Source: Dyella sp. SG609
GTDB taxonomy: Bacteria > Pseudomonadota > Gammaproteobacteria > Xanthomonadales > Rhodanobacteraceae
Assembly: GCF_012275375.1 (NCBI RefSeq)
Contig: NZ_JAAZQJ010000006.1
Coordinates: forward strand, 186,001-250,000
Direction of reading: 5' to 3'
DNA length: 64,000 bases
Shown here: in pieces, positions 5,766-53,485 of the stretch
How the letters are laid out: each line of letters begins with the position of its first letter
Numbering within the stretch: the first letter of the stretch is position 1
Position numbers and translations under genes: made by a program
Notes under the pieces: generated by a model
What the model saw: only the letters and a program-made list of their open reading frames with translations
Told to the model about the DNA's origin: nothing
Databases searched by the model: none

Positions 5766-5796
5766 GTAGGTTGGAGTGAGCGCAGCGAACTCCAAC
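5766..5796. repeat. Short palindromic repeat (GTAGGTTGGAGTGAGC type)
   Basis: A hairpin with arms GTTGGAGT and ACTCCAAC lies between DnaA-box repeats 2 and 3. It is a variant of the two arms of the large inverted repeat at 55818-55908, so this is a dispersed family with at least three members in the window. Confidence 0.7.
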
Positions 5797-5990
5797 GCCG
5801 CGGCGGCGATCACGCGTGTTGAGCGCAGGTTTTCCACAGCCGTTGTGGATGCTCTGCGGGCAAGCCTGTGGAAAACACCTTCAAATGCTTGATGGGGTTA
5901 GTGCGTGGACGCGCTGCAAAAGTTTTGGTCAGGCCATCGTCGTGTGATGGGGGTTTTCCACAGGTTTTGTGGATGTGGGTTGGGGGAGCT

Positions 5991-5999
5991 TGTGGATAA
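5991..5999 (-). promoter_or_regulatory. Perfect DnaA box
   Basis: TGTGGATAA is the exact complement of the consensus TTATCCACA. It is the last motif of the four-copy repeat. A single box could be chance; clustered with near matches it is more suggestive of DnaA binding. No dnaA, dnaN or AT-rich unwinding element is nearby, so this is not evidence for oriC. Confidence 0.55.
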
Positions 6000-6078
6000 G
6001 CGCGAGGGGGGCCTTGGGCAACAGTGGGTTGGCACGCTTTGCCGAAGTTCTGCGCAACGATGGGTGCGCATCCCGTTG

Positions 6079-13049: not shown

Positions 13050-13068
13050 TTCAATTCTGGATATTGAA
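13050..13068. promoter_or_regulatory. Candidate operator of the second TetR regulator
   Basis: TTCAATTCTGGATATTGAA is an inverted repeat with 6-bp arms, about 75 bases before the probable GTG start. Its position suits autoregulation. Inference only. Confidence 0.35.
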
Positions 13069-13141
13069 CTCGTTTTCATGCCGGTTATGGTCCGTCCGTG
13101 CTGGTAGGATCGGGCAGAACGGCAAAGGTGAGAATTTACGC

Positions 13142-14278: not shown

Positions 14279-14488
14279 ATGTCTACCGGTTCGCGCCCGT
14301 CGGAAACACTTTACGAAGTCGTGGTCAATCAGCACGGCCAGTACTCGACCTGGCCCGTGTACAAGGCGCTGCCGCAAGGGTGGGCGAAAGCGGGCAAGCA
14401 AGGGCCGAAGGCGGCCTGTCTCGAATTCATCGGAGCGACGTGGACTGACATGCGTCCGACGTCGCTCGGCGCCAGCGTGCGCCGCTAG
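14279..14488 (+). CDS. MbtH-like NRPS accessory protein
   Basis: A 69-aa protein of the MbtH family, which bind NRPS adenylation domains and help them fold and activate amino acids. The family fingerprint is intact: NQHGQYSTWP, a GW at residues 34-35, CLEFI at 47-51 and WTDMRPTSL at 55-63. The three invariant Trp residues are W25, W35 and W55. The ATG is chosen because GGAG precedes it by seven bases; an upstream in-frame ATG would add 14 residues with no similarity. Its partner should be the single A domain at the end of the megasynthase. Confidence 0.93.
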   Translation: MSTGSRPSETLYEVVVNQHGQYSTWPVYKALPQGWAKAGKQGPKAACLEFIGATWTDMRPTSLGASVRR

Positions 14489-14517
14489 CGCCGCGGCGCG
14501 GTTCGTTTTGCGTTACT

Positions 14518-14622
14518 GACGATCTGTTGGGGATCGTCATCGTGATGCCCCTTGGGGGAGGGGAGTTGGCTGCACGGTCAGCCATGGTTTCCGTGTGCGC
14601 ACGGCCGTCACCGCGGCCGTGC
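14518..14622 (+). promoter_or_regulatory. Two hairpins in the mbtH to AT-gene leader
   Basis: GACGATC (14518-14524) pairs with GATCGTC (14532-14538). GCACGGCCG (14599-14607) pairs with CGGCCGTGC (14614-14622). The second ends about 20 bases before the next start codon, close to its ribosome site (GGAG 14626-14629). They may lower read-through or translation after the small MbtH gene. Confidence 0.45.
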
Positions 14623-14641
14623 AGCGGAGCCATGAGCCAGT

Positions 14642-17600
14642 ATGGATGCGTCGCTCGTGAAAACCGTACTTTCGTTCGTGGGGCAGGGTACCCATCACGT
14701 GGGGATGGGGCGTGAATTGTTCGAAGGCGATGCATGCTTCCGCGCGAGCATGCAGCACGCCGACGGGGTGGTGCGCGAGCGTTGCGGCGAGTCCGTACTG
14801 GCCTTGCTGTATCCCGCGCAGAGCAGCCATGAACCGCTGACGCGCCTGCTGCACAGCCATGCCGCGATCTTCATGGTCGAGCATGCGCTGGCGACGTCGC
14901 TGCGCGAACGCGGCCTGCAGTTCGACCTGGTGCTCGGCTCCAGCCTCGGCACGTTCGCCGCCGCGGCCGCCGCCGGCTGGATCGATGCGGACGCCGCGCT
15001 GCTGGCGGTGATCGAGCAGGCGCTGGCGGTCGAAGCACATGCCGAACCCGGGCGCATGATCGCCGTGCTCGGCGATCCGCAGCTCTATCTCGACGCGGCG
15101 TTGCTCGCGCTGTGCGAAATCGGCGCGCGCAACTTCGCCAGGCATACGGTGCTGTCGCTGCCGGAAGCCAACGGCGAGGCCGTGGAATATCTGCTGCGCC
15201 AGCGCGGTATGAGTTTCCAGCGGCTGCCCGTGGCGTTTCCGTTCCACTCGCGCTGGGTCGACGCGGCGAAGGCGCCGTACGAAGCCTTCCTGCGCACGCT
15301 CGCGCCGAAAACCGGCCACCTGCCCGTCGCCTGCTGCACCGCGGGCGCCGTGCTGCCGGCGATGACGCCCACCGATTTCTGGTCCGTCGTGCGCGATCCC
15401 ATCCGCCTGCCGGAAACACTGGCGGCGATCGGTGCGCCAGAGGGCCATCGCTATATCGACGCCAGCCCCGCCGGGACGATGGCGACGCTGCTGAAACACG
15501 CGCTGCCGGTCGGAGGCGCGCAGATCCGCCCGATCCTGTCGTCTTCCGGCGGCGATCTCGCGCGGCTCGATGCGCTGCTGCCCAGACCCGCGCGAACGGC
15601 AGCGGCAGGCAAGGGACAGGTAAGTAACGGACAACTACCGGAGTCACGCCCCATGAAGGCAGTCATCTTTCCAGGCCAGGGTTCGCAATTCAAAGGCATG
15701 GGCAAGGAGTTGTTCCCGCTCTTTCCCGAGCAGGTGCGCAAGGCGTCGGAAATCCTGGGTTATTCGTTGGAAGATTTGTGCCTCAACGACCGCGACGGCC
15801 TGCTTTCCAAGACCCAGTACACGCAGCCCGCGTTGTACGTGGTCAACGCGCTGCACTACTACCAGGTGCAAGCCGGCGGGGCCACGGATGCGCCCGTCAT
15901 CTTCGCCGGCCATAGCCTGGGCGAGTACAACGCCCTGCACGCGGCCGGCGTGTTCTCCTTCGAAACCGGCCTGCGGCTGGTGCAGAAGCGCGGCGAGCTG
16001 ATGGGGCGCGCGAGCGGCGGCGGCATGGCCGCGGTGATGGGGCCGTCGGCGCAGGACCTGCGCGGCATGCTGCAGGAGCATCGCCTGCACGGCATCGATA
16101 TCGCCAACCTCAATACGCCCACGCAGACGATCATCGCGGGCGACCACGAGGCGCTTGCGGCGGCGGCGCAATTGTTCGAGAAGATGCAGCTGCGCTACGT
16201 GCCGCTGAACGTCAGCGCGCCGTTCCATTCGCGCCATATGCGGCCGGTGCAGGCGGAATTCGCCGAGTTCCTGCGCGGCTTCAGCTTCGAGGCGCCGAAG
16301 GCCACGGTGATCGCCAATGCCACCGCACGGCCGTACGAAGGCAGCCGCATCGCCGACACCCTGGCCAGCCAGATCGCCACCCCCGTGCACTGGGTGGATT
16401 CGATCCGCTATGTGATGGGCAAGGGCGAGGTGGAGTTCCAGGAGCTAGGCGCCACGATCCTGTCCAAGATGGTGACGGAGATCCGCCGCACGCAGACGCC
16501 GATTTTCGACGACGAGGACGATGCCGCGCCGGTAGCGCCTGCCATCGTTCCCCGTGCCGATGACGCCGGCACGCCGGCGGAGTCCTTCACCGCACCGCGC
16601 GGCGAACCCGGCGCGATCGAAGCCTCCTCGCTGGGCAGCGCGGTGTTCCGCCGCCGACACGGCGTGCGCTACGCCTATATGAGCGGCGCGATGTACCGCG
16701 GCGTCGCCTCGGCCGAACTGGTGGTGCGCATGGGCAAGGCCGGCCTGCTCGGCTTCTTCGGCGCCGGCGGACTGTCGCCGGCAAAGATCGAGCAGGGGCT
16801 GCTGCGCATCAAGGCGGAGCTCGATGCGGGCCAGCCCTATGGCATGAACCTGCTCGCCAACTACGAGTACCCGGCGCAGGAAGAGGCGGTGGTGGATCTC
16901 TACCTGCGCCACGGCGTGCGCAACGTGGAGGCGGCGGCCTTCATGCAGATGACGCCGGCGCTGGTGCGTTTCCGCCTTAATGGACTGCGGCGCAACGCTG
17001 CAGGCGAGCTGGTGTGCACGCATCGCGTCATTGCCAAGGTGTCGCGTCCGGAGGTCGGGCGCGCTTTCATGAGCCCCCCGCCGCCGGCCATCGTCGAGCG
17101 CCTGCTCGAACGCGGCCTGGTCACGGCGGAGCAGGCGGCCTGGGCGCCGTCGGTGCCGATGAGCCACGACGTCTGCGTCGAAGCCGATTCCGGCGGCCAT
17201 ACCGACGGCGGCATCGTGGCGGTGATGCTGCCGCCGTTGATGAAGCTGCGCGACGAGCTGCAGGCCGCGCATGGCTATGCCGAGCCGATCTGCATGGGCC
17301 TGGCCGGCGGCATCGGCGGCCCCGAGGCCGCGGCCGCGGCCTTCCTGCTGGGCGCGGACTTTATCGTCACCGGCTCGATCAACCAGTGCACGGTGGAGTC
17401 GGGCATGAGCGCCGACGGCAAGGCGCTGCTGCAGGCCATGGACATCCAGGACACCGAGTACGCGCCGGCCGGCGACATGTTCGAGATCGGCGCGCAGGTA
17501 CAGGTGCTGAAGAAGTCGGTGTTCTTCCCGGCGCGCGCCAACAAGCTGCTGTCGCTGTACCGCCACCACGAGAGCCTGGAGGACATTCCCGAGCGCACGC

Positions 17601-17971
17601 GCAAGCAGCTGGAGACGACGTTCTTCCGCAAGAGCTTCGGCGAGATCTGGGAAGAGACCCGCGCCTATTTCCGCTCGGTGGGCCTGGAGCACGAGATCGC
17701 CAAGGCCGAGGCCAATGCCAAGCACAAGATGGCCCTGGTGTTCCGCTGGTACTTCGCCTACTGCACGCGCATCGCCATGGAAGGCAAGGGCGAGGACCGC
17801 GTGAACTACCAGATCCAGACGGGCCCCGCGCTGGGCTCGTTCAACCAGTGGGTGAAGGGCACGGCGCTGGAGCCGTGGACCGCGCGCCACGTGGACGACA
17901 TCGCCGTCCGCGTGATGGAAGGCGCGGCCGAGCATCTCAACCGTTCCTTCGCGCGGCTGCGCCGCGGCTGA
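14642..17971 (+). CDS. Discrete trans-acting AT-AT-ER protein of a trans-AT PKS
   Basis: A 1109-aa protein that serves the AT-less megasynthase. Residues about 8-310 are a first acyltransferase-like domain with GSSLG (Ser101) and a later PFHSR. This variant resembles the PedC-type acyl hydrolases that clear stalled chains. Residues about 338-640 are a second AT with FPGQGSQ, GHSLGEY (Ser425) and PFHSRHM (His529), the PedD-type malonyl loader. Residues about 655-1105 are a PfaD/PksE-type FMN enoyl reductase (LAGGIGGPEAAAAAFLLGAD region). The same AT-AT-ER order is known from other trans-AT clusters, such as the OzmM type. An in-frame ATG at 15653 after CCGGAG marks the AT1/AT2 border and looks like an old gene start. 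The megasynthase follows after 30 bases. Confidence 0.93.
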   Translation: MDASLVKTVLSFVGQGTHHVGMGRELFEGDACFRASMQHADGVVRERCGESVLALLYPAQSSHEPLTRLLHSHAAIFMVEHALATSLRERGLQFDLVLGSSLGTFAAAAAAGWIDADAALLAVIEQALAVEAHAEPGRMIAVLGDPQLYLDAALLALCEIGARNFARHTVLSLPEANGEAVEYLLRQRGMSFQRLPVAFPFHSRWVDAAKAPYEAFLRTLAPKTGHLPVACCTAGAVLPAMTPTDFWSVVRDPIRLPETLAAIGAPEGHRYIDASPAGTMATLLKHALPVGGAQIRPILSSSGGDLARLDALLPRPARTAAAGKGQVSNGQLPESRPMKAVIFPGQGSQFKGMGKELFPLFPEQVRKASEILGYSLEDLCLNDRDGLLSKTQYTQPALYVVNALHYYQVQAGGATDAPVIFAGHSLGEYNALHAAGVFSFETGLRLVQKRGELMGRASGGGMAAVMGPSAQDLRGMLQEHRLHGIDIANLNTPTQTIIAGDHEALAAAAQLFEKMQLRYVPLNVSAPFHSRHMRPVQAEFAEFLRGFSFEAPKATVIANATARPYEGSRIADTLASQIATPVHWVDSIRYVMGKGEVEFQELGATILSKMVTEIRRTQTPIFDDEDDAAPVAPAIVPRADDAGTPAESFTAPRGEPGAIEASSLGSAVFRRRHGVRYAYMSGAMYRGVASAELVVRMGKAGLLGFFGAGGLSPAKIEQGLLRIKAELDAGQPYGMNLLANYEYPAQEEAVVDLYLRHGVRNVEAAAFMQMTPALVRFRLNGLRRNAAGELVCTHRVIAKVSRPEVGRAFMSPPPPAIVERLLERGLVTAEQAAWAPSVPMSHDVCVEADSGGHTDGGIVAVMLPPLMKLRDELQAAHGYAEPICMGLAGGIGGPEAAAAAFLLGADFIVTGSINQCTVESGMSADGKALLQAMDIQDTEYAPAGDMFEIGAQVQVLKKSVFFPARANKLLSLYRHHESLEDIPERTRKQLETTFFRKSFGEIWEETRAYFRSVGLEHEIAKAEANAKHKMALVFRWYFAYCTRIAMEGKGEDRVNYQIQTGPALGSFNQWVKGTALEPWTARHVDDIAVRVMEGAAEHLNRSFARLRRG

Positions 17972-18001
17972 CAACGAATCGAAGCACAGGAAGGCACGCG
18001 C

Positions 18002-49300: not shown

Positions 49301-49798
49301 CGCGCCAGGGAGCGCGAGCGGCATCCGGTGCAGCACGACGCCTGCCGCGCGCTGCTGAACTGGCTGCTCGACCTGAACCTGGCCGGCGACTGGCGCACCC
49401 ATCCCGACTATCCCGAGCTGATGGCGCGCGCTATCCGCGGCGATCTCGACGGCGTGATCGCGCTGTGCATGGGCGCGGGGCTGGTGCCGGCGGGGCTGGA
49501 TGCGGACGAGGTGAAGCGCACGGTGGCGCTGTACGAAGCCTGCGGCCGCGCGGCCGACGACTATCGTCCGCCGGCGGCGCAGCTGCCGGTGACGTACTTC
49601 GCCGCCGATCGCCACGAAGGCGACGAGGTCTCGCTCGGCTGGCGCGACCTGGTGGGGCGGCATCTGGAGGTGTCGCGGATCGGCGGTTCGCATCTGTCGA
49701 TCGTGTCGGCGCCGCTGAATGAAAAGCTGGCGCGCGATATCTCGGCGCGGATCGGCCGCTATACGCCGAATCTTTCCTTCACCGCGGCCAGTCCGTGA
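18002..49798 (+). CDS. Giant trans-AT polyketide synthase/NRPS megasynthase
   Basis: A single uninterrupted 10,598-aa protein (roughly 1.1 MDa). In order it has seven KS, five DH, five KR, one C-methyltransferase, nine carrier domains, one C, one A and one TE domain. No AT domain follows any KS; only the KS-AT linker ending in LPTYPFARERYW-type motifs remains, so extender units must be loaded by the separate AT protein. Modules: KS-DH-KR-ACP; KS-DH-KR-ACP; KS-DH-ACP; KS-DH-KR-ACP; KS-KR-ACP; KS-KR-MT-ACP-DH-ACP; KS0-PCP; C-A-PCP-TE. It would build an unsaturated, alpha-methylated chain, add one amino acid (serine predicted) and release it. AGGAAG precedes the ATG. The P450 gene overlaps its stop. 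An internal ATG at 43220 may be a relic of a separate gene. Confidence 0.97.
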   Translation: MNAGQIEPINVSPEREDIAIVGMSCRFPGAADYAQYWRNLGAGVSSVGEVPANRWDREAFYSPDVREPNKSTSKWGGFMDGVEFFDADFFGISAREAAVMDPQQRIMLEQAWNCLEDAGYDPRAFSGTRTGVYVGVFTFDYRDHLGRALDAVEAHVATGTHTALIPNRISYFLNLHGPSIPVDTACSSSLVALHKAAHAIRRGECEQALVGGVSVLCSPTHFISFSKTGMLSPDGSCKTFDEHANGYVRGEGAAMVLVKPLAKAVADKDRILAVLRGSAVNHGGHARTVTYPGSLAQSNVVAHALREADVPVGTVSYVEAHGTGTPKGDPIEIEGLKMAFARVAEERGEVLDAGSCGIGSVKTNIGHLESVAGMAGLIKTILCMRHGVFPPLVHYTRLNPRIALEGSPFFIVDRAQPWVVRKDEQGRPVPRRAGISSFGFGGVNSHVVVEEYPAGEAAADEVAPSREPALIVLSAKTVPVLRERAKQLLDVLDSGEIGDGQLADLAYTLQMGRQGMAARLAVVVDSVAALRARLQSWLDGDTRGIFAGELSAEATAWSAEAVLVQPDADALETARRWAAGESFDWAALYASVPRRRLALPTYPFVRDKHWVELKTAVGAQAAIHPLVHRNTSTVSGLRFTSRFSGRESFLADHVVQSRPTLPAAAQLEMVRCAAELAFAAGGACRLQDVVWLRPFVAEDESRDCHVALFAEGEGRFGFEIYDDEGEGCVYSQGAVTRQLAAAEPATHDLTAWRARCRRSVREAGASYELFDRIGLAYGPAHRALGEVLIGDTEALARIVLPDAAKPSQGDYVLHPSVLDAALQAAIVVAADGQWTDAGLALPFALASLDVMAPCHGDLWALLRREAGQRTGDGVSRFDIDLCDDSGAVCARLGGFSLRAVGQANEEAVRTALFVPAWTPAAAATGAALAQHLVLSCVPSASPHVPGAAFVDIDMHGDLAERYESAAASLLEAIQALVPQPGRHLVQVVVPQAGEAQLLGGLGGLLRTAQRENPRIVGQLIEVEPGQDIARAIADSRESLASRIRYVDGVRQEGAWQETAAPSVARSPWKAGGTYLITGGAGGLGRILARHIAASAKDATLILTGRSPLPDAGFAELAAMGATVRYRQLDVGDREAVLSCVSELASLNGIVHAAGVLRDSLLVRKTRDELQEVLRAKVAGTLHLDEASRDLDLDLFLCFASTSGALGNVGQADYAAANAFMDAFARHRAELVAQGRRRGRSLSVDWPLWEAGGMRVDDATRAELLAHSGLVPLRTASGLAALEQALALDVAQVLVAEGAIARFKAALVDSPAAVSTAPIEAGSVSAELRDKAVRYFVRLLAGTLKRAPESIDARARMEAYGIDSILVMELTRSLEQVFGTLSKTLLFEYQTIAELAGHFLEEHRERLVEALGETAQEAPVAGPRDTVAPPPLSRRPRFGVSQPERLAAALDAKSAAGEIAIVGVAGRYPQAADLAAFWANLSQGVDSITEIPAERWDYRDYYDADRDAPGKTYGKWGGFIDGVDRFDPLFFNISPREAELMDPQERLFLECVHATLEDAGYTRENVAEDGNVGVFAGVMYEEYQLYGAQEQARGNNLALLNSPASVANRVSYFCNFNGPSLALDTMCSSSLTAIHLACQAIQRGDCAVAIAGGVNVSIHPNKYLMLAQGRFISGKGRCESFGEGGEGYVPGEGVGAVLLKPLAQAQADGDHIYGVIRATAVNHGGKTNGYTVPNPNAQAKVIERALRRGGVDAREISYIEAHGTGTSLGDPIEIAGLAKAFRHWTRDTRYCAIGSAKSNIGHCESAAGIAGVTKVLLQLKHRQLAPSLHSAVLNPNIDFDATPFVVQQELAPWARPVIDGRERPRLAGISSFGAGGANAHVVIEEYIAPQPAAQPSGPALVVLSARHEDRLREQAARLLAAIEADRQLPLHDLAYTLQVGREAMDERLGVLAHSLEDLRTKLAAYVAGESAIEDLYRGQARRNKDALAVFAGDDDAEAIVEAWIARGKFGKLLDLWVRGLAIDWARLRTDAPLRRISLPSYPFARERYWVQTGEARPLAPMTGANLHPLLQRNTSDLDGPRFSAGFSGGEFFFVDHVVRGTRMLPGVAQLEMARRAVAEVAGAGFEPRLKNVSWLRPIVAGPDGIALQLSLYPEADGAVGFEIHGGGDLVYAQGMAVDGRGAEAVANHDLVLLRSSCTTTYTAADCYAALARMGLQYGPSFQGIRELFTGAGQVLARIAVPAAAPADGYELHPSLLDAAFQATLGLQFPVPAAAVPQVPFALGGLQVLRSCADVAWAVVRYSAGSAGSGAGQAVPRLDIDLCDEQGTVCVRFTDVGLRAMAAAANEPAAARTLMLEPAWAAKPAGAAGAEPFASHLVMACGVDAGVAPPGVTVVATSMDGDLAACYEAAAATLLERLQALSTQGGIHRVQIVVPAHGGGSPMAGLLGMLRTARLENPRLHGQLIAVEPGQDVARALLDNRDDDARHVRYAGGERQVAGWAERQVPAASSPWKDHGVYLITGGAGGLGSIFAEAIARGARNPVLVLTGRSAPDERIHTVIRRLEALGAVVRYHAVDVADAASLTALVRGIPEEFESLDGVIHAAGVLRDGYLAGKTRQELRDVFAAKVAGTLNLDEATRDMPLDCFVCFSSIAGAAGNVGQADYAAANAFMDAFAHERAARVARGERYGRSLSVNWPLWEEGGMHADEATRAMLLRQWGMRAMGSAHGVDALHRALAAGIGQVLVIEGDAARIREVFLDAPRVAPAAEARAVPAASSDAVPAQGLRDPLKRALMAQVSALIKVKPEDLDGDTSLNEYGFDSISLTGFANALNRQYGLDLMPTIFFEYATLDGLAGYLEREYRDVLAARFAAPVPAAATPAPVVAAEAPAQEARRARRGYAATAAAPAPAAKQPVAIIGISGRFPMAEDIDAFWRNLDEGRDCIGEMPAGRADWLAWHGERAPEGSAGQIVRGGFIEGVDAFDPAFFGISPREAELMDPQQRLMMIHIWKALEDAGYAASALAGSDLGLYVGTMPSGYATLASRAGAAIEGYSSTGTVASVGPNRMSYFLGVHGPSEPVETACSSSLVALRRAVLAIGRGDCAMAVAGGVNTIVNPELHISFERAGMLSADARCKTFSADADGYVRGEGVAMLVLKKLADAERDGDHIYGLVRGTAENHGGRANSLTAPNPAAQAAVIRRAHQDAGIDPRTVTYIEAHGTGTPLGDPVEVNGLKAAFRDLYAATGGEVAEAHCALGSVKTNIGHLELAAGVAGVVKVLLQMKHRRLVKSLHAQTLNPYIDLAGSPFRVVGEAREWTALRDAQGRAVPRRAGVSSFGFGGVNAHVVLEEYIAPVADAPAVEGPVAVLLSARDGERLHEQVRELAAFVASPETRASVSLADLGYTLQIGREPMEERLGVIAGSLDDLHGKLARFLDGTGAVHRGRADKAREGMDGKIEAWIAQGRLDTLVELWVQGHAIDWRRLHAHRVPRRVSLPTYPFAAERYWIAAGAAPRAGAAALHPLVQRNTSTLEGPRFSSRFGGNETVFADHRVGGRAVLPGVAQLEMARAAAGLALESSGPLHLKDVAWMRPVLAGDEGVELHLSLYPRDGGDVAYELHADGDLLYGRGTVTTMASAAAPTPHDIDALRSRCAARHLDAAACYAMFEAMGLGYGEGFRGLVEVFAGEGTVLARVALPEAWRAAGQAYELPPGLLDAALQASIGLFAGDGGNTPPLMLPVSLAALDVLGPCADATWVVVRRSDAADVVDIDLCGDDGMPRLRFHRLAFRAIEAASAENGVVMEPMAIAPVQAAPIAVEHAEDDAAFLERATRHFERFLSAALKLPAHRIERKARMETYGIDSLMVLDLTRALEKTFGPLPKTLFFEYQTLADLSGYFARQHREALAGLLGERRSAAAAVSMPVATKTAAAPPTRQARYALRNRAIGDESGAIAIIGVAGRYPQAIDLDAFWANLSQGVDSITEIPAERWDHSRYFDEDRNAPGKTYGKWGGFIEGVDRFDPLFFNISPREAELMDPQERLFLECVHATLEDAGYTRENVAEDGNVGVFAGVMYEEYQLYGAQEQARGKALAVPGHPASIANRVSYFCNFNGPSMALDTMCSSSLTAIHLACQAIQRGDCAVALAGGVNVSVHPNKYLTLAQGRFISGKGRCESFGEGGEGYVPGEGVGAVLLKPLEQAHADGDHIYGVIRATAVNHGGKTNGYTVPNPNAQAEVIERALRKGRIDARHISYIEAHGTGTSLGDPIEIAGLSKAFAHWTADTGYCAIGSAKSNIGHCESAAGIAGVTKVLLQLKHRQLAPSLHSAVLNPNIDFDATPFVVQQELAPWARPVIDGRERPRLAGISSFGAGGANAHVVIEEYVEALSIEHRDDGPAIVPLSARDDARLREQAQRLLAAIEADPQLSLHDLAYTLQVGREAMDERLALLVHTLDELRGKLAAWLAGDTAIDELYQGQAKRNREALAELTDDDDMDGTVRAWLAKGKHGKLLALWAKGLAFDWRSLHAGRPLRRVSLPTYPFARERYWLPLEAAPSNESQAAALHPLLHRNTSTFALQRFSSRFTGREFFLADHVVRGNRVLPGVAQLEMVHRAVREALDGDERLRLVDVAWQRPVVADADRLEVHVALLPQDDAAIRFEISRGDTVCTVGSVAVVEEGEPPAAHDIESLRRICVASRLDAAQCQLAFERMGLAYGPSLRGLTEVLVGTGQALARIVLPAGTKLDGFGLHPSLLDAALQATLGLASPEGGTLWLPASLASLDIHAACAERMWAVVTRHDDSDSTGKSFDIDLCDDAGRICIRFGGVLLRKAPAIQDAAPVLLAAPAWLAQQAASGDVAGSVAKHAVLLAGLAAAEADRVRLTFGDATTVELGSDLAQSYEAAAAALLDTLRAWATEPGPCLVQVVVPAQGAAQAMAGLEGMLRTARLENPGIRGQLIRIEAGQDAVRVLAENRSDDAVSIRYVDGVRQTAGWTEAQPAADTVSPWKAGGTYLITGGAGGLGLVFARDIARQAQGATLVLTGRSPLSGETQAALDELAALGATARYRQLDVGDRAAVLACVREIAEAEGLDGILHSAGVLRDGFILRKSHQDLRDVLRAKVAGTVYLDEASRDLPLDAFIVFSSLAGAIGNVGQADYAAANAFMDAFAHHRDGLVAQGQRSGRSLSVNWPLWDHGGMRVDAATRQRLLRERGMAPLGTVEGCAALAQAWSLGSPQVLVAAGDLARLRADVLGQRAQQRVAAPEPAQTAAPVETSADDLRERTVRHLVRMLSATLKLPPQRIDADARLEAYGIDSVMTLDLTARLEQAFGALPKTLFFEYQSIAALADYFLQHHRMALAGLVGESTVAAPAPVAAPAAVLSAPVAASRLRSRFVSRTEVKEEGIAIIGVAGRYPQARNLEEFWANLSQGRDSITGIPSDRWDHSLYFDADRNAPGKTYGKWGGFIDGVDRFDARFFHISPREAELMDPQERLFLECVHATLEDAGYTRENVAEDGNVGVFAGVMYEEYQLYGAQEQAHGRFVAAPGSPASIANRISYFCDFHGPSLALDTMCSSSLTAIHLACESLARGGCAVAIAGGVNVSVHPNKYLVLAQGKFISGKGRCESFGEGGEGYVPGEGVGAVLLKSLAQAKADGDHIYGVIRATAVNHGGKTNGYTVPNPNAQAKVIERALRAGGVDARQISYIEAHGTGTSLGDPIEIAGLSKAFAHWTADTGYCAIGSAKSNIGHCESAAGIAGLTKVLLQLKHRQLAPSLHSAVLNPNIDFAATPFVVQQELAAWRRPVIDGREHPRIAGISSFGAGGANAHMVVEEYVPAVAEEPPGGPALVLLSARDEERLRERAGELMAHLAKPELKLADLAYTLQVGREAMDERLALLVHSLDELRGKLAAWLAGDTAIEGLYLGQARRGADALAALAGDDDMAATVASWFARGKYERLLDLWTKGFNLDWRHLHVNGVRPRRISLPTYPFARERHWFPTGTAQAPARAEPVIAAAAAPIETLMFRPAWPVRPVFEGAAAPASRVVLLCGLEDGLAVRIREQFPHAACLVAPSGADLGSAFEAAASLLLETLQGLAAQPGQHLIQVVVPREGEWQALSGLDGMLRTARLESPRLLGQLIAVEAGQDVAAALTEDGAAQRVRHVRGERQTAGWTELRPSAQGASPWKDHGVYLITGGAGGLGLIFARAIASEVRNPVLVLTGRSALDETIKSRIRELEALGAVVRYHAVDVADAEAIDTLVRGIPEEFESLDGIVHSAGVVRDSFLLAKTRDELRQVLRAKVAGTLNLDRASRDMALDAFICFASIAGALGSVGQADYAAANAFMDAFAHERAERVARGERQGRTLSIDWPLWAEGGMQVDAATQAMMRQQLGMHPLGSAEGLRILREAWASDASQLLVVAGEPERIREAVLGTATQGIAAPPAAMVEEMTIEETAESSREAVWTALTELVSALIKVKPDDLDGETTFSEYGFDSVSLTEFGNALNQRFQLRLTPTVFFEHPTLDRLIDHLVREQGVVAAPPVRKRAAAVVSAAAVSAPVPVVTVPAADEPIAIIGMSGRFPHAADIEAFWRNLRDGRDCIDEIPPSRWDWRSLHGDQGREAHRTRIIWGGFIDGVDEFDPLFFGVSPKEAELMDPQQRLAMIHVWKALEDAGYAGDALAGSDTAVYIGTGATGYGRLVDRAGLGGEAYASTGGVPSVGPNRISFMFDWHGPSEPVETACSSSLVALARGVAAIRGGQAAVAVVGGVNTIVTPEAHISFSKAGMLSADGRCKTFAAEADGYVRGEGVAMLVLKKLSEAERDGDCIHGLIRGVAENHGGHANSLTAPNPVAQAEVIRTAQRQAGIDPRTVSYIEAHGTGTRLGDPVEVQGLKAAFGAEALAAPYCGLGSVKTNIGHLELAAGVAGVVKVLLQMKHRTLVRSLHSERLNPYLELDGSPFYVVREAREWAALRDAQGRPLPRRAGVSSFGFGGVNAHVVLEEYVAPVAARPPVTAPVPVLLSARNERQLQEQVRLLLDFVTRSEVDLGDLAYTLQVGREAMESRLALPVASMEELRERLHSVVAAGESSALIHRGTASRGRRDAAADTQAIGAWTAARDLDKLLDAWVKGAAVDWRQWHGARRPRRIGLPTYPFARGRYWVPETTAPLRSEPVEPLPSGHEWLLLPTWEVVEPKLAASSEGGRTLIAGGSPARRAMLLDALPDAAVLDSMPVDVAVLERHLRALGSFDRIVWLAVDEARAADDDDALIAAQEHGVIAAFRLVKALLALGFDRRALDWTVVTVQTQCVHGSDTVAPGHAAIHGFMGAVAKECASWRLHLLDMPRADAWPLDRMYRLAGEGRGATLAWRGGQWFRQVLSRVDAASVAQQASPYRDDGVYVVIGGAGGIGQAWSEHMIRTHRARIVWIGRRAEDEAIAQALTRLGALGAAPLYIAADAADRAALQRACAEVLARHGAIHGVVHAAIDLLDKSVAQMDESRLRAGLAAKVAASVRIAQVFGAQPLDFMLFLSSLAGFVRAAGQGNYAAGCTFKDAYALHLAARLPYPVKVMNWGYWGSVGVVASGDYRERMARQGIGSIEPAEGMRALERLLRSPLPQLGFMKAVREDVRGGVFDLVGQAKVRMHPARFDSVADTLSVPPAFQGDAAHLAAEGREIDRLALAILRGELQGLGLADAAAASPRYARWLKHSLRMIAQAGLTVSPSLEGAWSEWNARKVAWQAAGHVRQAQVTLVDAMLRSLPAILRGEVEATAVMFPDSSMRLVEGVYQGNAVADHFNDVLCEAVLAFVAARVARDPAARIRIVEIGAGTGGTSARVMARLAPYAQHIGEYCYTDLSRAFLLHAQGKYGPSYPYLSYRLLDIGSPLEGQEIEAGGYDLAIATNVLHATRDIRESLRNTKALLGANGQLVLNELASCELWSHLTFGLLDGWWLYEDEALRIPGCPSLSPARWHAVLREEGYRQVRFPAEPAHGLGQQVIVAESDGVVLQKPAAKASAPVRVEAATVSRPAEAAAPADAASLRERCRAKLAKLIGKALKLPAGEIDTATGLDRYGMDSILVLELTNALRAAFEELGIEERVSSTLFFEHASIDALADHFIAVEPEAMGRWTGVDVRVAPPPRKHPLLQTADAAAGRFGSRFDGSEFFLADHRVQGRRVLPGVAQLEMARAAAQQAMPGSGVRLGKVAWVRPAVADDSGLSLQLALTAEPDGAFRFELRGEDGAVHSQGIALAGQAAAERHDLAALRARCTVAQVGHEHCYAIFESKGLQYGPAFRGIDELFVGEGEVLAKISLPAPVAATLPDYALHPSLLDAALQSSLGMHLAAHGEEGIALALPFAVDGVQAHAACAAGMWAYVRHAAGTAAAGDIRQFDIDLCDAHGQVCVRIEKLSLRTVHLKPAPPLSRDTNHERNSPAMNDSKDFTSHHGHATDTQPASAVLREKSILQFRKLISRRLALPLEAIGATVGFDEYGLDSILVMELTDALRVVFGAEQIGATLFFEHHDVEALVDHFLRTDPAALSRWAGMAAAAPAAAPAAVVQTASTAAREVQPVEATIPTVPAPVAPFDVAIVGLSGRYPGANDVHQFWDNLAAGRHSVSEVPPERWAHGRFFDERKGQAGKTYTRWAGLLDDVQGFDRLFFHIAPSEARLMSPQERLFMQEVHASIEDAGYTAAGLSATRKVGVFVGVTNEHYATGARFWSIANRISHLCNFQGPSLAVDTACSSSLTAIHLALESLRSGDSEVAIAGGVNLIVAPTQLIDLASMAMLSADDKCRSFAAGADGFVDAEAVGALVLKPLHRAVADGDHIYGVIKGSAINSGGKTNAYLVPNPNMQAQLVGDALRRAGIDARTVSYVEAQGTGSHLGDPIEVAGLAKAFRQWTQDRQFCALGSAKSNLGHSESASGFVAVSKVLMQMKHGMLAPSLHAATPNPEIRFADTPFFVQQALAPWTRPQLDVDGRRREFPRRAGISSFGAGGANAHLVIEEYVEPSSSMRGGLPGPAMIVLSARDPERLKARVERLLAALAPERHASDLALADIAYTLQVGREAMEERLALLVESLDELRGKLAAILAGGKDVDDVYAGQAKRNAFSALADDEDMQAAVQAWVAKGKYGKLLDLWVKGFAFDWNGLYAGAAKPRRVSLPSYPFAREVCWTDVRYPDAVDALPTLGAVRKEGLALAAADVPATDATGTMMRIWCELLGRPSVALDDDFFELGGQSLLATRLAVRIRDEFGVEVPVAAILEAPTVAALVAWVAAAALATAPASTVAAPAAVREESYPLSFAQQRLWFLDQLEGYSPTYNIPAAVRLKGRLDTAALEGALNDVVLRHDALRARFGSVDGTPVQYIAERVELALALHDLRASAPGEREAQTRQLMLDEASTPFDLHGGPLVRGSLLRLADDEHLLLLTMHHIVSDGWSMGILVRELGTLYASRAFGAPAALPELPMRYVDFARWQREWLSGEVLERQLGYWKKQLAGAPTLLTLPTDRPRPPTQGQDGAALPYALPAELSAKLQALSRKSQGTLFMTLCAAFNVLLARYSGQNDICIGTPIANRNRSEIEDLIGFFVNTLVLRNQVDLSAGFTDLLKQVRATTLDAYAHQDVQFEQLVGAVQPERHTSYSPLFQVMLVLQNAPLNLALPGLELELVPHETVTAKFDLTLTFSEGPQGLYGSFEYNTDLFDRATIERMGEHFANLLQAIVAEPERPLGELPMIGEAEYRQLVYGFNDTAKAYPRVTPETNTLHQLFEAQVARTPEHVAVVYENRSLTYAELNAQANRLARHLRHLGVGPDVLVGLCTERSIEMIVGLYAIEKAGGAYVPLDPTYPSDRLATIVEDAAPAAILTLTHLRHAAPTIPGLPVLCIDGDAASWAMEDAGNPVNATQPGDLAYVIYTSGSTGKPKGVGIDHRGIVNRLEWMQEAYPLTAADRVLQKTPFSFDVSVWEFFWPLLEGATLVVAKPGGHQDVAYLAGLIDAERITTTHFVPPMLEVFLNEVEPGSGRSLRQVMCSGQALPMDLQQRFFATWDHVALHNLYGPTEASVDVTYWQCRKDSALNCVPIGKPIANIQIHILDDYFNPVPVGVVGHLYIAGVGLARGYVNRPDLTGQTFIPNPFSAEDGARMYLSGDLARYLPDGNIEYLGRSDHQVKIRGLRIELGEIESTLAALEAVRDVVVLARPDERGVQRLVAYLVAHDGQALPDPAVLRRTLAQTLPDYMVPEYFVGLATMPLTSNGKVDRKVLPAPEMAQDEGEHVAPRTAMEKAIAAVWSELLKVEKVGLTDDFFELGGHSLLATQLVSQLRKRHVAEIELRDLFSHATLGALASFVDTRKQGGLHPNLVPIRAKGTAAPLFLIHPIGGGVQYAFDLAQHLDANQPVYGLAVGETLHRSIDAMATAYLDAIREVRPSGPYLLAGWSLGGMVAYEIAHRLLAAGEDVQFVGMIDTSAPALRARERERHPVQHDACRALLNWLLDLNLAGDWRTHPDYPELMARAIRGDLDGVIALCMGAGLVPAGLDADEVKRTVALYEACGRAADDYRPPAAQLPVTYFAADRHEGDEVSLGWRDLVGRHLEVSRIGGSHLSIVSAPLNEKLARDISARIGRYTPNLSFTAASP
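22365..26720 (+). other. PKS module 2: KS-DH-KR-ACP
   Basis: KS2 (about 1456-1885) has Cys1626 in DTMCSSS and His1761 in HGTGT, with GHCE intact. DH2 (about 2066-2343) shows the full HVVRGTRMLP motif with His2095, and LLDAAFQ. KR2 (about 2352-2780) has GGAGGLG at 2520 and Tyr2662. ACP2 carries Ser2819 in a GFDSI context, a different ACP type from ACP1. All parts look active, predicting an enoyl intermediate. Confidence 0.88.
26730..29830 (+). other. PKS module 3: KS-DH-ACP without KR
   Basis: KS3 (about 2912-3348) is intact: Cys3080 in ETACSSS, His3215 and His3261. DH3 (about 3516-3787) has His3545 in HRVGGRAVLP and Asp3709 in LLDAALQ, but YGEGF replaces the usual YGPSF-type motif. ACP3 has Ser3855 in GIDSL. 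No ketoreductase lies between DH and ACP. The DH therefore needs a KR acting from another module, or performs a different task such as isomerisation, or works on the upstream beta-hydroxy intermediate. Confidence 0.85.
29830..34165 (+). other. PKS module 4: KS-DH-KR-ACP
   Basis: KS4 (about 3945-4373) has Cys4113 and His4248 and is nearly identical to KS2 over long stretches. DH4 (about 4553-4816) has His4582 in HVVRGNRVLP and Asp4743. KR4 (about 4829-5240) has GGAGGLG at 5003 and Tyr5144. ACP4 has Ser5301 in GIDSV. KR4 and ACP4 resemble KR1 and ACP1 rather than KR2 and ACP2. Predicted outcome: an enoyl intermediate. Confidence 0.88.
34165..37655 (+). other. PKS module 5: KS-KR-ACP
   Basis: KS5 (about 5390-5818) has Cys5558 and His5693 and belongs to the same near-identical group as KS2 and KS4. 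No DH follows; the linker passes straight to KR5 (about 6000-6420), with GGAGGLG at 6178 and Tyr6320. KR5 and ACP5 (Ser6477, GFDSV) closely resemble KR2 and ACP2. Predicted outcome: a beta-hydroxy intermediate. Confidence 0.88.
37655..43665 (+). other. PKS module 6: KS-KR-MT-ACP-DH-ACP
   Basis: KS6 (about 6554-6985) is intact (Cys6722 in ETACSSS, His6857) and resembles KS3. KR6 (about 7157-7637) has GGAGGIG at 7380 and Tyr7521 in GNYAAG. It is clearly diverged from the other four KRs. A C-methyltransferase (about 7638-7987) has the SAM motif VEIGAGTGGTS near 7801. ACP6 has Ser8050 in GMDSI. DH6 (about 8116-8390) has His8143 in HRVQGRRVLP and Asp8304. A second carrier, ACP7, has Ser8466 in GLDSI. 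The DH placed between two ACPs is unusual. Predicted outcome: an alpha-methyl enoyl chain. Confidence 0.85.
43670..45795 (+). other. Module 7: non-elongating KS0 followed by a PCP-type carrier
   Basis: KS7 (about 8558-8978) keeps Cys8713 (DTACSSS) and His8888 (NLGHSE), but the HGTGT His is replaced by Gln8848 (EAQGTGS). Loss of this His is the classic mark of KS0 domains, which pass on chains without condensing. The carrier that follows has Ser9208 in FELGGQSLLAT, an NRPS-type PCP motif, unlike the GIDS-type PKS carriers upstream. This pair is the handover from polyketide to peptide chemistry. Confidence 0.88.
45800..49798 (+). other. NRPS termination module: C-A(Ser)-PCP-TE
   Basis: The C domain (about 9268-9710) has HHIVSDG with His9401. 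The A domain (about 9738-10230) has YTSGSTGKPKG at 9880. By hand alignment, its ten pocket residues read D9926, V9927, W9930, H9969, M9994, S9996, L10020, V10028, D10029, K10220. This differs by one residue from the EntF serine code DVWHFSLVDK. The PCP has Ser10275 in GGHSL. The TE (about 10320-10598) has Ser10400 in GWSLGG and His10564 in GGSHLS. Predicted: amide formation with L-serine, then hydrolysis or cyclisation. Confidence 0.85.
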
Positions 49799-49818
49799 GC
49801 GCTCAACAGGGGAATGCC

Positions 49819-51303
49819 ATGAACGAAACCGTCTCCGAAGCACTGGCCTTGCCCGAAGAAGCCCCGGCCGAGCTCAGCTACACGCGCCGCATCGAGGATC
49901 TGCCCGCGCCGAAGGGCCAGCCGGTGGTCGGCAATGCGCTGCAGCTGAGCGGCCGCCAGATGCACCAGAAGTTCAGCGCCTGGGTGCGCGAGTACGGACC
50001 GATGTTCCGCCTGCAGGTGTTCGGCCACACCATCGTGATCGTCTCCGACGCGGCCACCGCGCATGGCGTGATGCGCGAGCGTCCCGACGGCTTCCGCCGC
50101 AACGGCGGGCTGAAGACGATCATGAACGAGCTCAACATCGGCGGCGTGTTCACCGCCGAGGGCGCGGCCTGGCGCAAGCAGCGCAAGCTGGTGATGAGCG
50201 GGCTCAATGCCGAGGTGATCCGCAACTTCTTCCCGAAGATGGTGACCTTGACCGAGCGCATGCTCGAACGCTGGAAGAAGGCGGTGCTCGAAGGCCGCGC
50301 CATCGACCTGCGCCGCGACCTCAAGGCGATGGCGCTGGATACCATCGTCGGCATCGCCATGGGCCACGATATCGACGCGGTGAACCAGGACGGCGATCCG
50401 CTGCAGCGCGATATCGACAGCATGTTCCAGCGCCTGGGCCAGCGCACCACCGCGGCGTTTCCGTACTGGCGCTACTTCAGATTGCCGGTGGACCGCGCGG
50501 CGGAGCGCTCCTTCGCCGAGATCGAGACGCGGGTGCAGGAGTTCATCCGCAACACGCGCCAGCGCATGGAGCAGCAGCGCGAACTGCAGCGCAAGCCGGC
50601 CAACATGCTGGAGGCGATGATCGCCGCCAGCGAGGATCCCGAATCCGAATTCACCGACGAGGAACTGGTGGCCAATGCCATCCTCAGCGTGATCGGCGGC
50701 GAGGACACCACCGCCAACTCGATCGGCTGGATGCTGTGCCTGCTGGCGCAGAATCCGGCTGCCGCGGCCGCGCTGGCGGCGGAAGCGGACCAGGTGCTGG
50801 GCGAGGCGCCGCTGCCGCGCGAGTGGGAGCAGATGAAGGCCTTCCATTATCTGGAGGCGGCGCACAGCGAGACGCAGCGGCTGAAGGCGGTGGCGCCGTA
50901 TCTGGGGCTGACCGCGAACGCCGATTGCGTGGTGGCCGACACGTTCATTCCGAAGAACACCGCGATCATCGTGGCGACGGCGGGCGAGGGGCACGACGCG
51001 GCGCAGTTCCCCGAGCCGGATCGTTTCCGGCCCGAGCGCTGGGTGGCGGAACTCCGCGAGCCCGGCGAGGAAGACCCCAGCCGCAAGCTGTTTCCGTTCG
51101 GCGGCGGTGCGCGACTGTGCCCTGGGCGGTTCCTGGCGCTGACCGAGATCAAGGTGGTGGTGTCGATGATCATGCGCAACTTCGAGCTGGAGCCCGACCC
51201 CAAGGCGCCGCCCGCGAAGGAGCTGCTGAATTTCTTCATGGCGCCGAGTTCCGTGCCGGTGCGGCTGAAGCTGCGCGTGCCGCCGGCGGGAGGCGCGGCT
51301 TGA
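49819..51303 (+). CDS. Cytochrome P450, tailoring oxidase of the cluster
   Basis: A 494-aa heme monooxygenase, probably hydroxylating or epoxidising the polyketide. All P450 marks are present: the I-helix GGEDTTANS near residue 293, the ExxR pair E351/R354 in ETQR, and the heme loop FGGGARLCPG with ligand Cys434. No membrane anchor is seen, so it should be soluble and need separate redox partners, which are not encoded here. ATG 49819 is favoured, with GGGGA just upstream. A GTG at 49795 in the same frame overlaps the megasynthase stop and would add eight residues. The next gene overlaps its end. Confidence 0.93.
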   Translation: MNETVSEALALPEEAPAELSYTRRIEDLPAPKGQPVVGNALQLSGRQMHQKFSAWVREYGPMFRLQVFGHTIVIVSDAATAHGVMRERPDGFRRNGGLKTIMNELNIGGVFTAEGAAWRKQRKLVMSGLNAEVIRNFFPKMVTLTERMLERWKKAVLEGRAIDLRRDLKAMALDTIVGIAMGHDIDAVNQDGDPLQRDIDSMFQRLGQRTTAAFPYWRYFRLPVDRAAERSFAEIETRVQEFIRNTRQRMEQQRELQRKPANMLEAMIAASEDPESEFTDEELVANAILSVIGGEDTTANSIGWMLCLLAQNPAAAAALAAEADQVLGEAPLPREWEQMKAFHYLEAAHSETQRLKAVAPYLGLTANADCVVADTFIPKNTAIIVATAGEGHDAAQFPEPDRFRPERWVAELREPGEEDPSRKLFPFGGGARLCPGRFLALTEIKVVVSMIMRNFELEPDPKAPPAKELLNFFMAPSSVPVRLKLRVPPAGGAA

Positions 51304-52694
51304 ACGCCATCGCGCCCGCGTCCAGCGCCGCCATCGCGCGGCGCATCCTGAAGGTGTCGCTGCCCCTGATGGGCTCGATGATCGGCAACCTGATCATGAT
51401 GCTGGTCGACCGCATCTGCCTGGCGCGGTACTCGGCCGATACGCTGGCGGCGTCCGGCCCCGCGGTGTACACGGCGATGGCGATCGTCGGCTTCTTCGTC
51501 GCCGTGGTGGGCTTCTCGCGTTCCTGCGTGGCGCAGGCCTATGGCCGCTCGGGGCACGCGGATGCGGCGTGGCAGGCGGCGATCGGCGTGGTGGTGGGCG
51601 TGGTGTTCGCGCTGCTGCTGTGGCTGATGGCGCCGCTGATGGCGTGGATCCCGGCGCTCAGCGACCGGCCGGCTAACCTCACGCGGCTGGAAGCGCAGTT
51701 TCTCTACTGGTCGGCGTATTTCGGCGCGGCAATGACCTTCAACATGGCGCTGTCGTCGTACTTCAACGGCATCGGCAAGACGCGCATCACCCTGGTGGCG
51801 GGACTGATCGGCCAGGCGGCAGGCATCGTGGCGACCATCGGCCTGGTGTTCGGCCGCTTCGGCCTGCCGGAGCTGGGCATGCGCGGTTCGGCGCTGGGCA
51901 CCCTGGCCGGCACCCTGGCGATCACGCTGATCTATGTGGCGTACATGCCCAGGGACGTGTGGAGCGACGTGCGGCGGCTGGTGGCGGCGCGCGGGCTGCA
52001 TCGCGGCGATCTGATGCCGCGGATCAGGAAGGGTGTGGCGCTGGGCGTGACGGCGGGCATCGGCAACTTCGGCAATGCGGCGTTTATCTGGATCATCGCC
52101 GGGCTGGGCGCGATCGCGCTGGCGGCCAACAACGTCAACCTCACGGTGAGCTATATCGGCGTGATTCCGCTGCTGGGCTTAGGGATAGGCTGCAGCGTGC
52201 TGTGCGGCAATGCGCTGGGGCAGGGGGAGTTCGAGCAGGTGCCGCGCATCATGCTGGTGACGCTGGCGCTGGAGCTGGCGTACGTGGCATTTACCGCATA
52301 TCTGCAGATCGTCACGCCGAACGTGCTGCTCGATCCGTTCGGGCTGGCGGACAAGCCCGACGAGATCCGCCACGCGGCGGTGGCCACCTCGAAAGTACTG
52401 TGGACGTACTCGCTGGCGTTCGCGTTCTCGATGACGGGGCAGGCGGTGCTGGAGGCGTTCGGCCTGACGCGGTTCCTGTTCGCGGTACGCTTCGTGATGA
52501 TGTGGGTGTTGAGCATTCCCACGGTTTATCTGATTACCTTGGGGCATGTGGGGGATGCGGAGTATCTGCCGACGGCATGGGTGGTGGGGTCGTCGTTCGA
52601 GGCGGGTATCGGGGTGCTGTATTTCTGGAGAATATGGGTGGCGGTGAGGCGGCGGCAGAACGAGATCGTGTTGAGGCCGCAAGTAGAAGCTTGA
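51300..52694 (+). CDS. MATE-family multidrug/metabolite exporter
   Basis: A 464-aa inner-membrane protein with about twelve hydrophobic segments in the two-bundle MATE pattern (for example SLPLMGSMIGNLIMMLVDRI and GVTAGIGNFGNAAFIWIIAG). MATE pumps export cationic or amphipathic compounds using Na+ or H+. In this operon it most likely exports the PKS product or gives self-resistance. The best start is the TTG at 51300, which overlaps the P450 stop (TTGA) and has GGGAGG about eight bases upstream. The first downstream ATG would cut into helix 1. The rare start and overlap imply translational coupling to the P450. Confidence 0.9.
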   Translation: MNAIAPASSAAIARRILKVSLPLMGSMIGNLIMMLVDRICLARYSADTLAASGPAVYTAMAIVGFFVAVVGFSRSCVAQAYGRSGHADAAWQAAIGVVVGVVFALLLWLMAPLMAWIPALSDRPANLTRLEAQFLYWSAYFGAAMTFNMALSSYFNGIGKTRITLVAGLIGQAAGIVATIGLVFGRFGLPELGMRGSALGTLAGTLAITLIYVAYMPRDVWSDVRRLVAARGLHRGDLMPRIRKGVALGVTAGIGNFGNAAFIWIIAGLGAIALAANNVNLTVSYIGVIPLLGLGIGCSVLCGNALGQGEFEQVPRIMLVTLALELAYVAFTAYLQIVTPNVLLDPFGLADKPDEIRHAAVATSKVLWTYSLAFAFSMTGQAVLEAFGLTRFLFAVRFVMMWVLSIPTVYLITLGHVGDAEYLPTAWVVGSSFEAGIGVLYFWRIWVAVRRRQNEIVLRPQVEA

Positions 52695-52724
52695 GCTCGC
52701 GTCGGTTCTGCAGTCTCGAATCCT

Positions 52725-52750
52725 TCTCCCTCCGGCGACCCGAAGGGAGA
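52725..52750. repeat. TCTCCCT/AGGGAGA palindrome
   Basis: A 7-bp stem with a 12-base loop in the gap between the MATE and PPTase genes. It is related to the CCTCTCC hairpins at 6489 and 12993. It may reduce read-through into the PPTase gene. Confidence 0.45.
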
Positions 52751-52786
52751 GGGGCTTGCGTAGAGGCGATGTGCAAAGGATAGGAC

Positions 52787-53485
52787 ATGCAGGAGTTGCG
52801 GCGCCTGTCGCTGGAGCGACATCCAGGGAATCTGCCCGACGCATTCGCGTTGCCGTTTGATGTGGAGGAAAGCGACGACACGCATTTCGCCCATCACGGC
52901 ATCGCCTGCCCGCCATCCATCGCGCGAAGCGTGGCAAAGCGCAAGGCGGAATATCTGGCCGGACGGCGTGCTGCGATGGCGGCGCTCTCGGAAGCTGGCG
53001 CTGAGGCGGGCGACCTGGCGATCGGGCCGTCGCGCGCGCCTGCATGGCCGCAGGGTTTTATCGGGAGCATTACGCATGCGGTGGGAATCGCGGCGGCCGT
53101 GGCCACGCGCGAAAACGCGGTACGCGGCGTCGGGATCGATATCGAGCACGTGGTGGCGCCAGGCGCGTTCGATGCCATCGTGCAATCGGTGGTCGATGCG
53201 GCGGAGCGCAAGGTGCTGGCCGCACTTGCGCGGCGGTTCGGCGAACCGATGGCGCTGACCATCGCGTTTTCCGCCAAGGAAAGTTTCTACAAGGCGACCG
53301 CGGCGGAAGTCGGCCGGGTCTTCGAGTTCAGTGCGCTGAAGATCGTCGATTCGAATGAAGTCGCGATCGAGGCGGAAATCGCCGAGAGCTTGGCGCCGGC
53401 GTTGCTGGCCGGCATGCGCTTCCGCCTGGGCTACTCGCTGCTCGACGACAGCACCGCCATCACCAGCTGCGCATGGAACCGCTGA
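52787..53485 (+). CDS. 4'-phosphopantetheinyl transferase, EntD/Sfp type
   Basis: A 232-aa enzyme that moves phosphopantetheine from CoA to the conserved serines of carrier domains. The Mg-binding GIDIE lies near residues 115-119 and the second motif FSAKESFYKA near 161-170. The EntD-like N-terminal half includes KRKAEYLAGRRAA. The ATG is preceded by AAGGATAGG. As the last same-direction gene after the PKS, P450 and exporter, it most likely activates the nine carrier domains of the megasynthase. It ends only four bases before the convergent PAP2 gene, marking the right edge of the cluster. Confidence 0.93.
   Translation: MQELRRLSLERHPGNLPDAFALPFDVEESDDTHFAHHGIACPPSIARSVAKRKAEYLAGRRAAMAALSEAGAEAGDLAIGPSRAPAWPQGFIGSITHAVGIAAAVATRENAVRGVGIDIEHVVAPGAFDAIVQSVVDAAERKVLAALARRFGEPMALTIAFSAKESFYKATAAEVGRVFEFSALKIVDSNEVAIEAEIAESLAPALLAGMRFRLGYSLLDDSTAITSCAWNR

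Follow-up and report, generated by a model that had tools for sequence, protein, structure and literature searches.

Hybrid assembly lines that join polyketide synthase (PKS) to nonribosomal peptide synthetase (NRPS) modules and receive their acyltransferase (AT) in trans are known from bacillaene, hangtaimycin and others. Such trans-AT lines have AT-less modules, a separate AT and acyl hydrolase, a non-elongating ketosynthase (KS0) before the NRPS, and dehydrating bimodules. Here we describe a cluster that resembles them in all of these traits. It lies at 14279-53485 of a 64-kb window (positions 186001-250000 of contig C6; all coordinates below are those of the window) in the 5.13-Mb genome of Dyella sp. 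SG609 (G000; Rhodanobacteraceae, Lysobacterales). It differs from the described hybrids in two ways: the whole line is carried on one polypeptide, and its module order matched no product. From the same bacterial order, a spliceostatin-type trans-AT PKS of another product type is described in Xanthomonas cannabis; that survey's main text does not mention Dyella, Luteibacter, Massilia or Janthinobacterium (PMC7930024). In the literature searched, no paper was found that pairs trans-AT with Dyella, Luteibacter or Rhodanobacter.

Read one by one, two modules of this line look incomplete. Module 3 has a dehydratase (DH) and lacks a ketoreductase (KR); module 5 has a KR and lacks a DH. Does the line leave a ketone and a hydroxyl at these positions, or are the missing domains supplied by neighbours? 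A case of one DH acting twice is the type B dehydrating bimodule. PMC8456789 gives its order as KS-KR-ACP-KS//DH-ACP-KR (KS, ketosynthase; ACP, acyl carrier protein); both KS elongate, and the DH removes two waters to give a 2E,4Z diene.

We show that the cluster is a real, complete and conserved trans-AT PKS-NRPS pathway, and that related orphan assembly lines form a family of which it is one branch. Comparison within this family favours sharing of KR and DH domains between neighbouring modules. We judge it somewhat probable that the product is a 2-methyl, largely conjugated polyenoyl-serine, made with such shared domains and oxidised by a cytochrome P450. A preliminary description of this stretch was right on gene content and is partly supported on chemistry.

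Results

The core of the cluster is a megasynthase of 10,598 amino acids (~1.13 MDa), encoded by one open reading frame (ORF) at 18002-49798 on the plus strand. Its domain order was obtained with hidden Markov models (HMMs) made of hand-cut segments of the window. Home-made models are circular for domain identity, and therefore ten pieces were also scanned with Pfam: DH1, KR1, ACP1, DH3, KR6 plus methyltransferase (MT), the ACP-DH-ACP of module 6, KS7, peptidyl carrier protein (PCP)-condensation (C), adenylation (A), and PCP-thioesterase (TE). Each of the ten fell into its predicted family, the DH of KR-less module 3 among them. AT models had zero matches in the megasynthase and did match the separate AT protein, so the extension modules are AT-less.

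Three modules have the order KS-DH-KR-ACP: module 1 (18047-22210), in which no carrier or loading domain precedes KS1, module 2 (22370-26581) and module 4 (29831-34024). Module 3 (26732-29686) is KS-DH-ACP, and its DH retains the catalytic His and Asp. Module 5 (KS-KR-ACP, 34166-37552) and module 6 (KS-KR-MT-ACP-DH-ACP, 37655-43522) form the first and second halves of a putative type-B-like dehydrating bimodule. Module 7 opens with KS0-PCP (43673-45736) and continues with C-A-PCP (45794-48946; Pfam Condensation and AMP-binding), predicted to add serine, and a type I TE with the motif GWSLGG (48959-49771; Pfam PF00975, 117.5 bits). The line thus carries seven KS and seven ACPs. KS1-KS6 retain Cys-His-His. 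KS7 retains the Cys, but its first active-site His is changed to Gln (EAQGTGS), a trait of all 18 KS in its clade; this loss of His with retention of Cys marks a non-elongating KS0. Judged by these motifs, the line would perform six elongations and one transfer. The trans-AT PKS/NRPS proposed at the outset, with seven KS and an AT-less PKS ending in an NRPS module, is what we find. A pseudogene reading was ruled out: the ORF has no internal stop, and the KS Cys and the DH His and Asp are present.

How widely is this line distributed? The AT-enoylreductase (AT-ER) protein of the cluster, searched against genome contigs, gave 38 relatives, of which 21 were looked at (two of them, L029 and L035, at the head only) and 17 (L042-L058) were left aside; further genomes were added by genome search. 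In all, 15 complete lines were read, three of which are divided between two polypeptides. At E <= 1e-130 the protein occurs in 18 of 233 Rhodanobacteraceae genomes, our own included, and in 16 of the 233 it has at least 68% identity in the best stretch (two of these 16 loci are partial or broken). Three of the six genomes searched in the genus have it (G000, G001 and G002). Six other lines have a domain order identical to the window's, with a single serine: those of Dyella OK004, Pinirhizobacter soli, D. subtropica, Rhodanobacter OK091, Luteibacter dw_328 and G189. Their megasynthases are 68-82% identical to ours, and recurrence of the order in six other genomes excludes chance. The earlier statement that such systems are uncommon in Xanthomonadales is therefore fair as a matter of frequency, but with seven lines sharing one order the cluster is no isolated oddity.

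A tree of 107 of the family's 108 KS (a truncated one from D. tabacisoli was left out), built within the family only, has four clades: KS1; KS3 and KS6, with the motif ETACSS; KS2, KS4 and KS5, with DTMCSS; and KS0. The KS that open the second half of a bimodule, KS3 and KS6, thus form one clade (99% SH-aLRT support). A GFDS-type ACP precedes the KS in 26 of 26 ETACSS cases and a GIDS-type ACP in 47 of 47 DTMCSS cases, counts that come from related, not independent, sequences. Within the window, KS2, KS4 and KS5 (22688-34500) are 86-89% identical in DNA, with stretches of 71-95 bases repeated exactly. In Luteibacter dw_328, G189, G180 and D. nitratireducens, two or three of these KS cluster by species (support 87-94), a hint of concerted evolution.

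Two lines of evidence bear on the incomplete modules. A DH that never meets a beta-hydroxy substrate should decay. In the family megasynthase polypeptides read (the tail of L. rhizovicinus left out), all 80 DHs counted retain both catalytic residues, His and Asp, including all 19 in modules without any KR: 10 from module 3, two from module 6, six from Massilia and Pseudoduganella and one from the second line of G025. The module 3 DH is intact at both residues in each of the 10 lines that contribute it. This argues that the KR-less-module DHs are still given a beta-hydroxy substrate. The second line of evidence is the make-up of modules 5 and 6, for which we see three combinations of KR and DH domains: KR5, KR6 and DH6 in eight lines; KR5, DH5 and DH6 in G025; and KR5 and DH6 in D. 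nitratireducens. These sets are most simply explained by sharing of KR and DH within the pair. We therefore favour, from this comparison of sequences, supply of a KR to module 3 by a neighbour over a permanent ketone; the absent module 3 KR and module 5 DH probably cost no double bond. The preliminary description had read modules 3 and 5 singly, and this is probably wrong: a more conjugated polyene is favoured.

Do modules 5-6 correspond to a described bimodule? Like type B, they have KS-KR-ACP followed by a second KS, both KS elongating to judge by their motifs, and a single DH to serve two hydroxyls (PMC8456789). They may work like a type B bimodule; we do not class them as one.

Several observations count against sharing as we read it. 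Relative to type B as set out in PMC8456789, modules 5-6 are unsplit, on one polypeptide where type B is divided between proteins; their order is KR-MT-ACP-DH-ACP rather than DH-ACP-KR, and an MT has been added. In the DH motif HxxxGxxxxP, the glycine has given way to Asp in four of the ten module 3 DHs, and to Ser or Ala in four KR-bearing module 1 DHs, including that of the window, so intact His and Asp are not the whole motif. Searches of the Protein Data Bank (PDB) with three of the seven KS (KS1, KS3 and KS7) gave as best match for each the trans-AT bimodule core 7zma/7zm9/7zmc from Brevibacillus: another organism and another line. The next match of KS3 is the bacillaene PksJ KS (644 bits), but PksJ is also the second match of KS1 (503 bits); this likeness is graded, not specific. 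The glycine and PksJ points lower the odds of sharing slightly. The trans-acting ER may saturate some of the double bonds. And every chemical step, KR sharing included, is inferred.

These points bring us to the other ways of reading the line. Were it strictly colinear, module 3 would leave a beta-ketone and module 5 a hydroxyl, and the product would be a hydroxy-keto-polyenoyl serine, possibly lactonised. This takes the KR-less module 3 and the DH-less module 5 at face value, and it gains from the Asp that replaces the motif glycine in four module 3 DHs and from the KR model, which matches no window ORF outside the megasynthase. A permanent ketone, however, would not lead us to expect His and Asp intact in all ten module 3 DHs, nor does colinearity fit the KR-less DH modules that keep these residues at several family positions, or the three combinations of domains seen in modules 5 and 6. 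We regard it as unlikely. Far more improbable, in our view, is that the ETACSS KS only transfer. Modules 2-3 and 5-6 would then each make one elongation, as in type A bimodules, and the chain would be two units shorter. Modules 5-6 of D. nitratireducens, KS-KR-ACP-KS-DH-ACP, do have the type A order given in PMC8456789. In type A, however, the second KS is a KS0; Cys-His-His is intact in KS3 and KS6 and in all 26 ETACSS KS, and module 6 of the window has its own KR and MT.

Could the product simply be a compound already described? Among the matches listed in our literature searches no paper describes the cluster or its product, in keeping with the preliminary statement that no compound matched the module order. 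PKS/NRPS clusters for which no product is known are reported in two Dyella genome papers (PMC9169046, PMC6082245); they may or may not include the present one. Identity with a described compound seems to us quite doubtful, if less so than the transfer-only scheme.

The A domain has the code DVWHMSLVDK, of the serine type when set beside reference codes, and is predicted to activate serine, as had been proposed. Its nearest PDB relatives are Txo2 and LgrA, the latter with 777 bits over two stretches; the serine enzyme EntF scores 414 bits. Overall the domain is closest to LgrA, and the serine call accordingly rests on the code and not on overall likeness.

Upstream of the megasynthase, and likewise on the plus strand, lies the gene for the AT-ER protein (14642-17971), by Pfam and motifs probably a trans-acting fusion of acyl hydrolase, malonyl AT and ER. 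Pfam Acyl_transf_1 matches in two stretches and the FabD helical insert is present, all above cut-off. The match of the ER part to NMO is below cut-off (24 versus 28 bits); naming it an FMN-type ER therefore draws also on the analogy with PksE-type proteins. It had been described as AT-AT-ER. The gene and its two AT-like domains stand; two ATs probably do not, since the first domain has GSSLG, whereas the second has GHSLGE and PFHS. According to PMC11775670, G(A/S/V)SL is frequent in acyl hydrolases, and GHSxGE with xFHS in malonyl ATs. The pair is thus probably an acyl hydrolase plus the separate malonyl AT that a trans-AT system has. The first domain shares its motif with the PksD-type hydrolases of that source and differs in being fused to AT and ER; its hydrolase role is predicted. 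The AT-ER protein of D. choica lacks the acyl-hydrolase part.

The remaining genes run in the same direction. An MbtH-like protein, a helper of the NRPS A domain, is encoded at 14279-14488 (Pfam PF03621, 64.4 bits), its ATG exactly at 14279; its homologs show 83% (Dyella OK004) and 85% (Rhodanobacter OK091) identity. An MbtH gene directly precedes the AT-ER gene in 14 of 16 loci; the exceptions are G180 and D. choica, where none was found at that place, although D. choica has an MbtH gene downstream. A tailoring cytochrome P450 follows the megasynthase (49795-51303; Pfam p450, 292 bits), then a MATE exporter (~51300-52694; Pfam MatE), whose TTG start overlaps the P450 stop, and an Sfp-type phosphopantetheinyl transferase (PPTase; 52787-53485; Pfam 4PPT_N and ACPS), at whose stop the interval closes. 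All the genes named at the outset are thus present in one direction over 39 kb. A P450 follows all 15 complete lines; a MATE gene follows 12, and not the three of Massilia and Pseudoduganella. The P450 is 56-91% identical across relatives while the amino acids vary, which makes the polyketide part its more likely target. Its top PDB matches are the plant carotenoid hydroxylases LUT5 and LUT1 (121-123 bits), enzymes of a type that acts on polyenes; human CYP3A5 scores as close (120 bits), so these matches name no reaction.

Where does the unit begin and end? Window genes tested from outside the MbtH-PPTase interval had no match (E <= 1e-15, more than half the length) in the stretches around 15 relatives' clusters, which puts the borders roughly at MbtH and the PPTase. 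The nearest congener, G003 (L095), matches the window up to 13952, shortly beyond a TetR gene; after 8 bases the match resumes at 52801, 14 bases into the PPTase gene. MbtH to MATE are thus lacking at the same site in G003, and the PPTase is kept next to the TetR gene. Because the PPTase also closes the clusters of Dyella OK004, Rhodanobacter OK091 and G180 and persists in G003, loss in G003 is simpler than insertion, a reading that we set behind loss. G005 lacks, at the same site, everything from ~5.5-6.0 kb to 53487. Cluster GC is 67-71%, like the rest of the window except for a lower stretch at ~4-14 kb (63-65%), and base composition is therefore uninformative on origin.

Two features left of the cluster may be recorded here. 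Several copies of a DnaA-box-like inverted-repeat motif, TTTTCCACAG...TGTGGAT, were seen by eye at ~5480-6060 of the window and at ~2050-2720 of L096; they are intergenic, where G005 lacks its ~47-kb block. Two TetR_C_30 regulators (6967-7866 and 13064-13942), 46% identical, flank a TonB receptor in the lower-GC stretch. The pair is present in cluster-less G003, and was not found in the flanks read of other clusters.

Discussion

From the order of its domains, the line may work as follows. The trans-acting AT would put malonate on the ACPs, and KS1 would receive a starter from outside: the first KS is without a preceding carrier in 17 of 17 polypeptides, and no loading domain was found in the megasynthase by HMM or among the neighbouring ORFs scanned. 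The D. choica line has two elongating modules, and a chain that it built from acetate would be very short; a longer starter is mildly favoured, at least there. Six condensations would follow loading. Modules 1, 2 and 4 would make double bonds the ordinary way. Module 3 would borrow a neighbouring KR and use its own DH, and modules 5 and 6 would act as an unsplit double-dehydrating bimodule, one DH removing water twice to give an alpha-methyl 2,4-diene, with the methyl group from the MT of module 6. KS0 would hand the chain to the PCP, the C domain couple it to serine and the TE release it. The P450 would then oxidise the product, most likely in its polyketide part, and the MATE pump export it. 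For an acetyl starter, and if neither the ER nor the P450 acts, we calculate C18H23NO4, 317.163 Da; another starter would shift the mass.

This scheme retains much of the chemistry first proposed. An alpha-methyl enoyl next to the amide is supported by the MT in module 6, the last elongating module, and several further double bonds are supported too, the polyene now being read as more fully conjugated. For the lactone or dehydro form of the N-acyl-serine, nothing found points to either.

Beyond the serine lines, the head and P450 are common to wider relatives in Dyella, Luteibacter, Massilia and Pseudoduganella, whose ends carry three to five amino acids. G180 shares the window's PKS part and adds a second amino-acid module, whose code is ambiguous (DVGHLSLVEK). 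Naming residues by reference codes, with X for DLFNNALTYK, probably a small residue, the ends are Ser-Ser-X-Asn in G025, whose adjoining second line ends in Thr-X-Asn; Val-Ser-Asn in D. nitratireducens; Val-Ser-X in Massilia BJB1822 and two Pseudoduganella; and Thr-X-X in D. choica, where a second AT-ER locus has no readable megasynthase. L. rhizovicinus has four amino-acid modules, and D. silvatica at least five A domains, four of them full length.

Some relatives are built in ways of their own. G025 (L066-L068, L086 and L087) has tandem megasynthases (open frames of 13,392 and 8,277 amino acids) whose KS1 domains are identical; a separate P450 and MATE follow each. In Pinirhizobacter soli (G016, L088) the end of another NRPS line lies ~13 kb upstream of the serine line; its codes read Thr-X-Gln, and it too has its own P450 and MATE. 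The Massilia and Pseudoduganella lines (L030, L031 and L033 with L079-L084) consist of two overlapping frames and contain an internal KS0-ACP module. AT-ER relatives in Enterobacillus, an Anammoxibacter metagenome-assembled genome, Janthinobacterium fluminis and Achromobacter MYb9 (L038-L041) adjoin differently built trans-AT genes, apparently other trans-AT clusters.

Taken as a family, these lines may represent an undescribed class: polyenoyl amino acids and peptides from trans-AT lines, most of them on a single polypeptide, of Rhodanobacteraceae and Oxalobacteraceae. Neighbouring modules would routinely share reductive domains, and the peptide end would have varied from one to five residues while AT-ER, KS0, TE and P450 were kept. 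We offer this broader proposal tentatively, with less confidence than the structure suggested for the window's own product. If it is true, soil and plant-associated genera hold an unmined natural-product family, of which fifteen complete lines are readable. Lines that differ by one KR, one DH, an added MT or one to five peptide modules would amount to a natural experiment, one that bears on domain sharing and end exchange in trans-AT lines, an open engineering question.

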